Of a DNA stretch of 26,105 nucleotides, positions 450 to 5,568 are shown piece after piece. Position numbers and translations under genes: made by a program. Location of the stretch: positions 1 through 26,105 of IMG/VR virus record IMGVR_UViG_3300030012_000574, one strand, 5' to 3'. Position 1 is the stretch's first letter; each line of letters begins with the position of its first letter. Under the pieces are notes generated by a model. That model did no database searches, had not been told where the DNA came from, and saw nothing but the letters and a program-made list of their open reading frames with translations. The stretch is from a virus.

Positions 450-1091
450 ATGGCTACTAAAACAAAAACAAAACCAACAACAACAGCAGTTGCTATCACT
501 CCACCAGATTTCAGATTTCTTTCAATCAATTTAAAAGGAACATCCCCTCTAGTGATTAATCGCTTTAGTGCTAAAGCAATGGAAGAGATGAGAGCAACTC
601 AAGAAGCAGGTAGTACCTCTAGGAGTAAAAAAATCCGTGAGGCAAAAGACTTTGATGCTTTATATGAAGGAGCAAAGCATACTTCCGAACAAGGCTGGGA
701 AGGTATTCATGCTGCTGCATTTAGAAATGCTGCAATTAGTGCTTGTCGTGCAGTTGGCTTCAAAATGACTCATGCAAAATTAGCCTTTATGGTTTTGGCT
801 GATGGGTTTGACAAAGTTGATGGTGCTCCTTTAGTCAAATTGACAGAAGGTAAAGCAGAAAAATGGGTTGCCCCTACTCGTAACGCTACTGGTGTTATTG
901 ATTTAAGAAGTAGACCTATGTATCGCAAATGGGGAACTACTTTAAAAATCCGTTATGACGCAGGGATGCTAAGTGAAACTGACATCGTGAATTTAATTGC
1001 ACGAGTTGGGATGCAGGTAGGAATTGGAGAGGGAAGACCTGATTCAAAACAATCTGCGGGACTAGGTTTCGGATTATTTGAAATCGTTTGA
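450..1091 (+). CDS. RAMP/Cas7-like phage protein of unknown function
   Basis: A 213-residue protein. I chose ATG 450 over the in-frame TTG at 423 because ATG follows an A/C leader (ACACAAAACA) like that of 4155. Three features in order recall RAMP-superfamily proteins (Cas7, Csm3, Cmr4 type): an N-terminal strand then G-x-S-P-L (FRFLSINLKGTSPLVIN, 21-37); a helix after a small-residue turn (GIHAAAFRNAAISACR, 85-100) at the place of the RAMP 'IPGSSLKGALR' motif; and a C-terminal glycine-rich loop (190-209, G191, G193, G195, R196, G204, G206, G208) before the last strand FEIV. The array at 1100-1426 starts 9 bases after its stop. The RAMP assignment is motif-level inference; it could be an unrelated ferredoxin-like protein. 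Some phages carry homologues that I remember only as hypothetical. Confidence 0.75.
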   Translation: MATKTKTKPTTTAVAITPPDFRFLSINLKGTSPLVINRFSAKAMEEMRATQEAGSTSRSKKIREAKDFDALYEGAKHTSEQGWEGIHAAAFRNAAISACRAVGFKMTHAKLAFMVLADGFDKVDGAPLVKLTEGKAEKWVAPTRNATGVIDLRSRPMYRKWGTTLKIRYDAGMLSETDIVNLIARVGMQVGIGEGRPDSKQSAGLGFGLFEIV

Positions 1092-1099
1092 TATATAAA

Positions 1100-1426
1100 G
1101 CAGGCACGGCAGGCGGGGCGTGTACCGACGAGGTATGGAGTGATGCGGGATGGTCAGGTGAGTAAGGTAAGGAAACGCAGGCATGGCTAGAAAAGGTGGT
1201 GAAAGGTAAGGTCTGGCTTGGAAACGCAGGCGAGGAATGAAGAGTAGCGGTATGGTCGGGTAGGGTCGGGACTGGATGGCAAGGTAACGCAGGCTCGGTA
1301 TGGTATCGAAACGAAGGCGAGGCGGGGCAAGGACAGGTGAGGCACGGTTTAGCAGGCAAGGACGGGAGAGGAAGGGTGCGTCGAGGAGAGGATTGGCAAG
1401 GACGGGAGAGGAAATGCAGGCAAGGT
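1100..1426 (+). repeat. G-rich non-coding array with GG every 5 bases (GGNNN) and GCAGGC anchors
   Basis: This fills the only gene-free gap over 300 bases (1092-1458). On the plus strand G dominates and C and T are scarce, unlike the AT-rich surroundings. GG dinucleotides fall on a 5-base grid in long blocks: 1249-1275 (six in a row), 1316-1347 (seven in a row) and 1355-1411 (11 of 12). Blocks are separated by 1-4 base phase slips, several at an anchor (A)CGCAGGC or variant (1100, 1177, 1226, 1289, 1313 as GAAGGC, 1352, 1416). The three N positions vary, so this is not a simple satellite. Nothing in it looks coding: the long minus-strand frames are low-complexity Pro/Ser/Leu/His/Cys and exist only because TTA, CTA and TCA are rare here. 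Likely transcribed with the flanking genes. Function unknown. Confidence 0.85.
1355..1413 (+). repeat. 19-base direct repeat inside the GGNNN array
   Basis: GGCAAGGACGGGAGAGGAA occurs perfectly at 1355-1373 and again at 1395-1413. The offset is 40 bases, exactly eight pentamers, so both copies keep the same 5-base register. It is the only long exact repeat I see in the array and suggests growth by short in-register duplications. Confidence 0.85.
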
Positions 1427-1458
1427 TTAATTTCACTTATTCATTTACTATTTTTCTT

Positions 1459-1935
1459 ATGAACAACTACGTTTACAAAAAAACTGCTTACGTCCAAGGT
1501 GGCGTTAAAGCTCAAGATGCTGGCGAAGAGCTAGAACGGATTCAACAATCTCATGGCAAAATTACACCAGATATTGTTGTTGATGAAGCTAGACCTATTG
1601 ATTCACCATTACATAACGTCTTTGAATGGGATGATGAAAAGGCAGCGGAAAATTATCGACACTCTCAAGCTAGAGTTTTAATTCGTTCTATTGAAGTTGT
1701 GAAACCTGGAGGGAATACGGAACCTGTATTCATTCACGTTCAAACTGAGAAAGCCTATTTACCTTCTCAAATCGTTGTCCAAGATTTTGATCTTTTTGAA
1801 TCTGCAAAAAGGGCTGCGGAAAAACGACTAGATGAAGCGACTCATTCTTTGCAACAATTAAAACTTATGGCAAAGAAAAAGACGAAGATAACAAAGGCTA
1901 TTGATTTGGTTCACAAAGCTAAAGAACAACTTTAA
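1459..1935 (+). CDS. Conserved phage protein with ARPxxSPLHxxFEWDD core, paired with the GGNNN array
   Basis: A 158-residue protein. The frame is open back to 1300, but those extra codons are array translated into Arg/Gly-rich low complexity; ATG 1459 is the first start after the array and begins the ordinary sequence MNNYVYKK. The conserved part is residues 35-72: ITPDIVVDEARPIDSPLH, then FEWDD and KAAENYRHSQARVLIRSI. I recall this pattern in proteins from many unrelated phages, always of unknown function. A strand-rich middle (74-110) is followed by a basic, probably coiled-coil tail (113-158, KKKTKITKAIDLVHKAKEQL). There is no clear Shine-Dalgarno. Its position directly after the array and the RAMP-like gene suggests all three work together. 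That is inference; no enzyme motif is visible. Confidence 0.75.
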   Translation: MNNYVYKKTAYVQGGVKAQDAGEELERIQQSHGKITPDIVVDEARPIDSPLHNVFEWDDEKAAENYRHSQARVLIRSIEVVKPGGNTEPVFIHVQTEKAYLPSQIVVQDFDLFESAKRAAEKRLDEATHSLQQLKLMAKKKTKITKAIDLVHKAKEQL

Positions 1936-3657: not shown

Positions 3658-4107
3658 ATGAATGACATTTTTATTTCTGTTGTAGGGATTCCTGCTGCTC
3701 AAGGTAGTAAAAAACATGTAGGTCGAGGAATCTTAATTGAATCTTCTAAGAAGGTTGCACCTTGGAGGCAAGATGTTCGAGAAGCTTCAATGAAAGCTTT
3801 TAACGGAAATCCAATTTCTGAACCAGTAAAAATAAAAGTAATTTTTAAATTTATTAGACCTAAAGGACATTTTGGAACTGGTAAAAATCTAGAAAAATTA
3901 AAACCCTCTGCTCCTAAATATGCAACAGGTCATAATCTTGGAGATTTAGATAAATTATTAAGATCAACTTTTGATGGTTTATCTGTATCGGCTGGTGGAA
4001 CAGTAATTAAAGATGATTCATTAATTGTGCAAGTAGAAGCAGAAAAAAGATTTGCTATGAATGGCGAATATGCAGGAGCAGAAATATGGGTATCAACATT
4101 ATCTTGA
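3658..4107 (+). CDS. rusA: RusA-family Holliday junction resolvase
   Basis: About 149 residues from ATG 3658, which has GAGG (3645-3648) nine bases upstream. An in-frame ATG at 3616 would add 14 residues but has no ribosome site. The fold signature of RusA is present: N-terminal strand and GxP-x-x-x-GS-K (ISVVGIPAAQGSKKH), then W-R-x-x-V, then the catalytic region GDLDKLLRSTFDGL with conserved acidic residues, then VIKDDSLIVQVEAEKRF, where the DD and the basic KR match the family's active site. RusA enzymes are dimeric, cut four-way junctions and act late in phage recombination and DNA debranching before packaging. It sits between the nuclease and the annealing protein. Confidence 0.85.
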   Translation: MNDIFISVVGIPAAQGSKKHVGRGILIESSKKVAPWRQDVREASMKAFNGNPISEPVKIKVIFKFIRPKGHFGTGKNLEKLKPSAPKYATGHNLGDLDKLLRSTFDGLSVSAGGTVIKDDSLIVQVEAEKRFAMNGEYAGAEIWVSTLS

Positions 4108-4154
4108 CCTTTCTACAATAATAGTTTACACTTTAAAGGTGCAATAACAAAACA

Positions 4155-4904
4155 ATGCCAAACCAGTCAAAACCTAAAACAAATTCACTTCCTGATTTAT
4201 CAGGACTTATTACAAAAGAAGACATCCATCAAAAAGGTGGTGGCTCTTTTAAAGCTGATTATGTTAACTGGGCTAAAACAACTCAATACCTTAGAGAACA
4301 TGCACCAGGCTGGGACTTCCATTTAGAACCTAAAAACGAAGAATACGTTTGGGCTGCACCAGATAACACTGGGTATTTGATGTGTTATTTCCAGAATGGA
4401 GAAAGGAAAACACCTTTATTTCCTTTTCCAATAATGGATAACAGAAATAATCCATTACCACTTGAAAGAATTAATTCAAGGCATTTAACAGACTCACATC
4501 GGCGAGGTTTATGTGCTTGTTCAGCCTTTACCTTTGGTCTGGCATATGAATTATGGGCAAGAATTGAAATTGAAGAAGCTAATCAACCTGATTTACCTTC
4601 TAATAAACAAAACATTTCAAGAACTCCAAATAAACCAGCAAAAGATTTACCTCCTCAACAAAAAAATATTATTGAAAAAGCAACAAGTTTTTCTGTTCCT
4701 ACTTTGATTGGGAGTGATGCTGCTTCAGTATTAACCAATCATTTAACGAATATCATGAAAACTGATAAAAAGAAACTTGAAGCTATTAAAGAAAAATTTT
4801 TCAAACAAAATAAAATGAGTACAACAGAACTTCATGTTTCAAAACTTACTGCTGAACAAGGATCATCACTTACTCAAATTATTCAGGAGTTTACTACTCC
4901 TTAA
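4155..4904 (+). CDS. Single-strand annealing protein, DUF1071/Sak3-like
   Basis: A 249-residue protein. The N-terminal 145 residues fit the DUF1071 pattern: YVNWAKTTQYLREHAPGW (helix with the YxxWa motif), the strand YLMCYFQNGERKTPLFPFPI, then MDNRNNPLPL, a T/S-rich linker, and the helix HRRGLCACSAFTFGLAYELW leading to an acidic end. DUF1071 proteins (Sak3 group) are phage recombinases thought to coat single strands and pair complementary DNA. Residues 150-180 are a Pro/Asn/Lys linker. The C-terminal 70 residues (SVPTLIGSDAASVLTNH and on) form a second helical domain of unknown role. The ATG follows ATAACAAAACA with no Shine-Dalgarno. The stop overlaps the next small gene as TAATG. Confidence 0.8.
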   Translation: MPNQSKPKTNSLPDLSGLITKEDIHQKGGGSFKADYVNWAKTTQYLREHAPGWDFHLEPKNEEYVWAAPDNTGYLMCYFQNGERKTPLFPFPIMDNRNNPLPLERINSRHLTDSHRRGLCACSAFTFGLAYELWARIEIEEANQPDLPSNKQNISRTPNKPAKDLPPQQKNIIEKATSFSVPTLIGSDAASVLTNHLTNIMKTDKKKLEAIKEKFFKQNKMSTTELHVSKLTAEQGSSLTQIIQEFTTP

Positions 4905-5014
4905 TGGATGCAAAAGCAATCGAACAGGCTGCTGAACAAGTTTTAAATCAACTTAAACAAAGAAATTTATCACGCATTCATCAAAAACAACATCAACAAA
5001 ACTCAAACAAATGA
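4904..5014 (+). CDS. 36-residue hypothetical peptide between annealing protein and SSB-like gene
   Basis: The ATG is shared with the upstream stop (TAATG at 4902-4906) and the stop TGA is shared with the downstream start (ATGA at 5011-5014), so it is locked into the operon on both sides. The peptide MDAKAIEQAAEQVLNQLKQR is an amphipathic helix with a Gln/His/Asn-rich tail. No motif is recognised. It may be a real small protein or mainly a translational coupler between two abundant DNA-binding proteins. Confidence 0.55.
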   Translation: MDAKAIEQAAEQVLNQLKQRNLSRIHQKQHQQNSNK

Positions 5015-5376
5015 ATCAATTTAATTCAAACAAAAAATTTACTCCTGCTTTTACCTATCCCGTTAATTGGTCAACTGGCGACAATCAGTTTGATGATAAA
5101 GATATAAATCCAAAAACATTAAGTTTAAAAATACCTGTAAAATCTATTCCTGAATTTTGTGCTTTTCTAATGGCACTTGAAGCTGATAAGTCAAAACATA
5201 AAAAAACCAAAGGTGGTATTTACAATTCAAATACAAAACAAAAGGAAAATAATGATGATGATCTTGTTGTTTACATTAATGCAAAAGGTAGAGAGTCAGA
5301 TGATGGCTATGGAATGTATGGCAATATAAATCCAGCAAAAATAAATTACATAGATTCAAACGAAATTCCTTTTTAA
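5011..5376 (+). CDS. Possible phage single-stranded DNA-binding protein (SSB-like)
   Basis: A 121-residue protein next to the annealing protein. It lacks a clear OB-fold signature that I can call by eye. It has a strand-rich middle (LSLKIPVKSIPEFCAFLMAL, 37-56), a basic patch (DKSKHKKTKGG), a strand LVVYINAKGRE, a Gly/Tyr/Asn-rich stretch and a C-terminus DSNEIPF. That end matches the acidic, Pro-Phe tip (DDIPF) used by bacterial SSBs to recruit nucleases and helicases. Size, place in the operon and tip together suggest an SSB analogue. An accessory recombination protein that only mimics the tip is the alternative. Confidence 0.5.
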   Translation: MNQFNSNKKFTPAFTYPVNWSTGDNQFDDKDINPKTLSLKIPVKSIPEFCAFLMALEADKSKHKKTKGGIYNSNTKQKENNDDDLVVYINAKGRESDDGYGMYGNINPAKINYIDSNEIPF

Positions 5377-5379
5377 AAT

Positions 5380-5568
5380 ATGACTGAAAAAGAAATTTTT
5401 GACACTTTTTATAGTGTCATAGAATCTTCTGCTACTCCTTTTTATAAGCGATTGGCTCAAGCAGCACTGGTAGCAACTGCTAATAATAAAATGTTGATTT
5501 TAAAAACATGGCCGGAAATTTTTGAACAATACGGCCCTTTATCTTCTCAACATAAAAATGAATTATAA
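5380..5568 (+). CDS. Hypothetical 62-residue protein
   Basis: It starts 3 bases after the SSB-like gene (TAAAATATG) and its last codons overlap the start of the small gene at 5558. The protein is helical, MTEKEIFDTFYSVIESSATP followed by an alanine-rich helix (RLAQAALVATANNKMLIL). There are no cysteines, signal peptide or clear membrane segment. It is probably a small early protein of the same message. Function unknown. Confidence 0.55.
   Translation: MTEKEIFDTFYSVIESSATPFYKRLAQAALVATANNKMLILKTWPEIFEQYGPLSSQHKNEL

Follow-up and report, generated by a model that had tools for sequence, protein, structure and literature searches.

The closest described relative of the locus analysed here is Viral Interference Programmable Repeat (VIPR), published in 2026 (bioRxiv 2026.04.26.720920, PMC13142463). 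VIPR has three components: a RAMP protein named Vipr, vrRNAs built of 9-16 YNNGG repeats, and an accessory gene, vap. The published systems are numbered as types I-VII, and their accessory genes as vap1-6. Vipr is defined as a RAMP with an RRM core, a G-loop and a thumb, the second RRM being absent, and the founder of the family, Vipr of Escherichia phage SUSP1, has been found experimentally to be RNA-guided. The NN bases of the repeats read double-stranded DNA, one target base being skipped between NN pairs, and the published targets are mostly rival phages or competing mobile elements (PMC13142463). We inspected the SUSP1 genome and located Vipr and its arrays. This type II system has separate vrRNAs with conserved structured 3' tails and GGY units.

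The window, the whole stretch of 26,105 nucleotides that we analysed, is an IMG/VR record representing a 26-kb fragment. On its plus strand, gene 1 (450-1091), a GG-period-5 array (1100-1428) and gene 2 (1459-1935) follow one another. We are highly confident that this module is a VIPR locus, RNA-guided and most likely acting against a competing phage or prophage; the module, the RAMP fold, the family membership, and the array grammar with its conservation are what we observe here. An earlier note on this DNA had taken the module to be undescribed, but its kind had already been published as VIPR (PMC13142463). The resemblance to the type II system of SUSP1 lies in a phage-borne phrog_4652 RAMP with a small accessory gene, and in intergenic GG-period-5 arrays on the same strand. 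The features of the locus are as follows.

450..1091, plus strand: vipr-like gene (gene 1), a single-domain RAMP of 213 aa, from its phrog_4652 match, profile alignment with SUSP1 Vipr, and AlphaFold2/Foldseek
1100..1428, plus strand: vrRNA array of GGH-NN pentanucleotide units with NGCA resets, from the lag-5 GG count against shuffles and unit segmentation
1112..1176, plus strand: guide module S1 (unit segmentation), NN = GG GT CC GA AT GT GC AT CA GA, then 4-nt GTAA, AA AA
1180..1225, plus strand: guide module S2 (unit segmentation), NN = AT TA AA GG AA AA CT TT AA
1229..1288, plus strand: guide module S3 (unit segmentation), NN = GA AT GA GC AT CG AG CG CT, then 4-nt GGAT, AA AA
1292..1351, plus strand: guide module S4 (unit segmentation), NN = TC AT AT, irregular CGAAACGAA, GA GG AA CA GA AC TT
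1355..1415, plus strand: guide module S5 (unit segmentation), NN = AA CG GA AG GC GA GA TT AA CG GA AA
1459..1935, plus strand: accessory (vap-like) gene 2, 158 aa, of the SPLH...FEWDD family phrog_15946, from its PHROG match, neighbourhood conservation and model

Gene 1 runs from an ATG at 450 to a TGA at 1091 and encodes a C-terminal glycine-rich loop, GMQVGIGEGRPDSKQSAGLGFG. Eight bases (TATATAAA) separate its stop codon from the array, which opens with GCAGG at 1100 and ends at about 1427; the ATG of gene 2 follows at 1459. These coordinates confirm the adjacency of the three parts on one strand and the spacings given in the earlier note, which had also correctly placed the module just ahead of recombination genes: exonuclease, RusA and Sak genes come next. 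Two minus-strand ORFs (937-1359 and 1074-1436) were rejected as genes, as they are by-products of the repeat (CCNNN is the complement of the array). A longer form of gene 2, starting within the array at 1300, was rejected as another repeat by-product, the start at 1459 being conserved in the relative L003. A promoter scan of the window gave background level, and an Rfam search returned no match. An isolated GCAGGCG at 407-413, upstream of gene 1, resembles the NGCA-GGC reset of the array; it may be an array remnant, since the array lies upstream of gene 1 in 12 of the 71 IMG/VR loci with a gene-1 homologue.

PHROG searches placed gene 1 in phrog_4652 (E 1.1e-16), the family that also contains SUSP1 Vipr (E 1.4e-96). 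When the window-family profile was aligned to SUSP1 Vipr with hhalign, the match had a probability of 96 and an E value of 2e-9 over 174 columns, and included a G-loop common to both (GIGEGRP in gene 1, GVGDWRP in SUSP1 Vipr) that is invariant in the gene-1 family. Pfam yielded nothing for gene 1 or gene 2. The AlphaFold2 model of gene 1 (pLDDT 86) gave 14 Foldseek matches at E <0.001, all of them Csm/Cmr RAMP complexes, and a second structural comparison gave a Z score of 10.6 to Csm3, the best PDB matches being Csm3/Cas7. The predicted fold and the PHROG family bear out the earlier description of gene 1 as RAMP-like, and the protein combines a family match to SUSP1 Vipr with the RAMP fold and the invariant G-loop. 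It shares this fold and the glycine-rich loop with the backbone RAMPs of Class 1 CRISPR-Cas (Csm3/Cas7) and, judging from the model, would be expected to form an RNA-binding filament. Unlike Class 1 CRISPR-Cas, the window lacks CRISPR repeats and spacers and other cas genes, its period is five bases rather than six, and its guide is non-contiguous. A tandem-repeat scan of the window found no CRISPR-like repeats, and a CRISPR-Cas identity was rejected for a locus of only two genes and a 5-nt array.

The array contains 37 lag-5 GG pairs, compared with a mean of 11.6 (sd 3.0, maximum 23) in 2000 dinucleotide-preserving shuffles; elsewhere in the window, 331-nt stretches of either strand have at most 4. 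Base identity at lag 5 is 0.48 in the array, whereas the two flanking genes have about 0.26 and 0.23. Across all arrays (3901 units), GG is followed by C in 70%, T in 13% and A in 11% of units, so that C or T makes up 83% of third bases, and then by near-random NN. The window array is looser than most: its third base avoids G (8%) and is A in 24%, several units have no GG, and some 4-nt units are off phase. Roughly every 10 units, a 4-nt unit, usually NGCA, resets its phase. The 4-nt unit is also the commonest exception in the 92 array stretches, where it reads NGCA in 549 of 671 instances; successive NGCA units most often lie 8-12 units apart (mode 10), a spacing that falls partly within the 9-16 repeats published for vrRNAs. 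We read NGCA as a guide boundary or phase-setter, and the layout may correspond to the staggered arrays with overlapping vrRNAs of PMC13142463. Of the pattern GGNNN proposed earlier, the five-base period of GG stands, but the formula is slightly too loose, given a third base that avoids G and the 4-nt resets. As a VIPR array, the element consists of GGH/NN units in modules of mostly 8-12 units between NGCA resets.

The claim that the three parts form one conserved module held up in the survey of the 71 loci, in which homologues might have turned out to lie apart and without arrays. A same-strand GG array was found within about 1.5-1.9 kb of the gene-1 homologue in 67 of the 71, compared with an opposite-strand array in 3 and a frequency of 2/100 in control stretches elsewhere in the loci. 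Among the four homologues without a detected array, two lie on contigs (L063 and L071) that end within gene 1 or immediately next to it; L005 has an irregular array visible by eye. In 66/71 loci a gene-2 homologue neighbours gene 1 in the same orientation; it mostly follows gene 1 directly, and sometimes precedes it. Searches of annotated phages with gene 1 and with gene 2 matched an identical set of 33 records: 27 from Mycobacterium phages, five from Gordonia phages, and cyanophage Cy-LDV1. Both families match inside a single annotated gene of Mycobacterium phage Gorge, gene 54 (L193 1066-2283, 1218 nt), which from its sequence is an apparent fusion of gene 1 and gene 2. Listed until now as unknown, phrog_4652 and phrog_15946 together become markers of a VIPR clade that is widespread and whose arrays follow a clear grammar.

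Gene 2 belongs to phrog_15946 (E 2.3e-21 in the PHROG search). The N-terminal half of its model (pLDDT 92.6) has secondary structure elements in the order H-H-H-E-E and weak winged-helix matches (Z ~3.4-4.0), a modelled resemblance that by itself would be no evidence of function; Foldseek with the model gave no match at E <1. We found no sequence similarity to SUSP1 Vap1, and the two accessory proteins fall into unrelated families (phrog_5926 in SUSP1). Gene 2 is kept beside gene 1 as a vap gene would be, in agreement with the earlier suggestion that it acts as a partner.

The window differs from SUSP1 in array layout as well: its array is continuous, is built of GGH units and has its phase reset by NGCA, and unit segmentation found no tails between its guide modules. 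Judged by sequence, the window VIPR is outside type II on account of its accessory gene and array layout. Tentatively, the clade could represent a VIPR variant of its own, where several guides would be carried on a single continuous RNA, NGCA would serve as a processing or phase-setting signal, and GGH would tolerate A, although we think this rather less likely than not to hold; if true, overlapping guides could be read from one transcript. The VIPR loci of Mycobacterium (Cheoctovirus) and Gordonia phages, whose proteins are annotated only as hypothetical, share both protein families and NGCA-reset arrays with the window. Their arrays have cleaner GGC units and in mycobacteriophages often lie upstream of vipr, and one of their guides matches Che8 (see below).

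The published work and the homology suggest the following mechanism. The array would be transcribed together with gene 1, and Vipr subunits would form a coat on the RNA, each subunit gripping the GGH of one five-base unit and leaving its two variable NN bases free. A guide would span about ten units, with NGCA at its bounds. The NN pairs would recognise double-stranded DNA, passing over one target base between one pair and the next, as published for SUSP1 and suggested by our data, and the skipped base would usually be a codon wobble position. Binding would silence the target gene, as published elsewhere; that gene would most likely belong to a competitor in the same host, either another phage or a prophage. 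Gene 2 would be the accessory protein and probably helps with DNA, a DNA-side role to which the evidence points weakly. The earlier idea that the RAMP protein binds array RNA in five-base steps is, by model and analogy, most likely nearly right. The uses then proposed fare less well: there is no need to invoke an RNA decoy, genome marking or control of recombination when the published NN bases are guides to target DNA, and anti-defence has the wrong direction, the published VIPR targets being competing mobile elements.

When the NN composition (4494 units) was compared with six registers, codon positions 1-2 came nearest (r 0.54), in line with a skip that sits on the wobble base; RNA constraints could also cause such a bias. 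Exact scans of IMG/VR with the window's own guides S1, S3 and S5 (8 units) and S2 (9 units) returned chance-like matches only. Extension of these matches past the scanned units was at chance level, and the one S3 match that fits a ninth unit too (L135) is about as expected. At 3 mismatches, S5 had no match in 21 related phage records. Two guides from the VIPR of a probable Bradyrhizobium lablabi prophage (L156) behaved like the reversed-pattern control in 265 Bradyrhizobium genomes; their sole 1-mismatch match (L158) was rejected as a target, as the gene was not convincing.

Two guides of Mycobacterium phage Quico were also scanned. One of them (AA TT AT TT TT AT GC CC TC AT, from the array at about 5545-5786 of L077) was picked before any IMG/VR scan with it, and its first nine units matched 15 IMG/VR contigs. 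Three of these are Cheoctovirus-like mycobacteriophages: Che8 itself (L197), Wachhund, and a third phage. In all three the guide fits 19/20 NN bases with a 1-nt skip in the tape-measure gene, in antisense orientation and with the skips on wobble positions. The remaining 12 contigs were matched in unrelated genes, in a chance-like manner. The phages in which a gene-1 homologue was recorded do not include Che8. In the 19 VIPR-bearing phages tested, the site does not occur even with up to 3 mismatches allowed; among them is Quico, whose own tape-measure gene has a best antisense site of 14/20. The other Quico guide gave chance matches in IMG/VR. We roughly estimate the chance of a match of the Quico-Che8 type in mycobacteriophages at <1 in 100, and regard this sequence match as suggestive rather than as proof. 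In a pooled test of 435 guides against 4.6 Mb on both strands, skip 1 gave two independent 19/20 matches, one of which was known in advance, and skip 0 gave one; an all-against-all comparison of guides with phage loci at skips 0-3 showed no clear excess except for Quico2. Because skip 0 also matched once and one skip-1 match was foreknown, the pooled result is suggestive of the 1-nt skip rule in the present clade and does not prove it. Quico versus Che8 on M. smegmatis offers a concrete laboratory test with a well-stocked phage collection.

Since the third base of the units is GGH and not GGY, the same RNP might follow another DNA-reading rule in this clade, with three variable bases per unit or a different skip length. 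The frequent third-base A of the window and its guides without a 1-nt-skip target would fit such a rule, but the preponderance of C or T at this position over all arrays would not, and the sole strong natural match, Quico to Che8, follows the 1-nt skip; we consider another rule unlikely.

Considerably less probable still is a coat or decoy, in which the RAMP protein and array RNA would titrate host factors or protect phage DNA or RNA and the variable bases would guide nothing. GG is indeed the strictly regular part, the window array is loose, and its own targets were not found. However, close relatives have hypervariable NN bases but retain GG and the NGCA spacing, a decoy needs neither ten-unit modules nor a codon-like NN composition, and the family founder is RNA-guided by experiment (PMC13142463). 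Between the window and L003, DNA identity is 83% in gene 1 and 95% in gene 2, and the arrays align only piecewise; mycobacteriophage arrays vary by whole units and whole modules. A DNA element, either a recombination hot spot for the adjacent exonuclease and Sak genes or a Chi-like array, would suit the recombination genes downstream in the window but is highly improbable, as the array tracks the RAMP gene, strand included, in phages where the surroundings are different: tail genes in Gordonia phage Ecliptus, for example, and the lysogeny region in mycobacteriophages.

We thus favour an RNA-guided VIPR locus, by which the newly found kind of system gains a member in a relative of the Prochlorococcus siphophages. 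The tail genes of the window are closest to those of Prochlorococcus siphophages MED4-117 and P-HS2 and marine virus AG-345-A17; a picocyanobacterial host is therefore likely, though not proven by such sequence likeness.

VIPR-like loci of the same clade also occur in bacterial contigs of Bradyrhizobium lablabi (L156) and Roseococcus (L151), probably as prophages. In three phages the array is overlaid by an annotated protein gene or an extended gene start.

L076 6581-6850: Gordonia phage Pipp gene 43, annotated over or into the array
L195 1895-2218: UmaThurman gp40, annotated over or into the array
L181 1103-1849: Saal 51, annotated over or into the array

The close window relatives L001 and L002 have an additional small ORF between gene 1 and the array (5631-5930 in L001). 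In L069, gene 2 lies upstream of gene 1, and the GG array (3906-5550) is very long, at ~1.6 kb.
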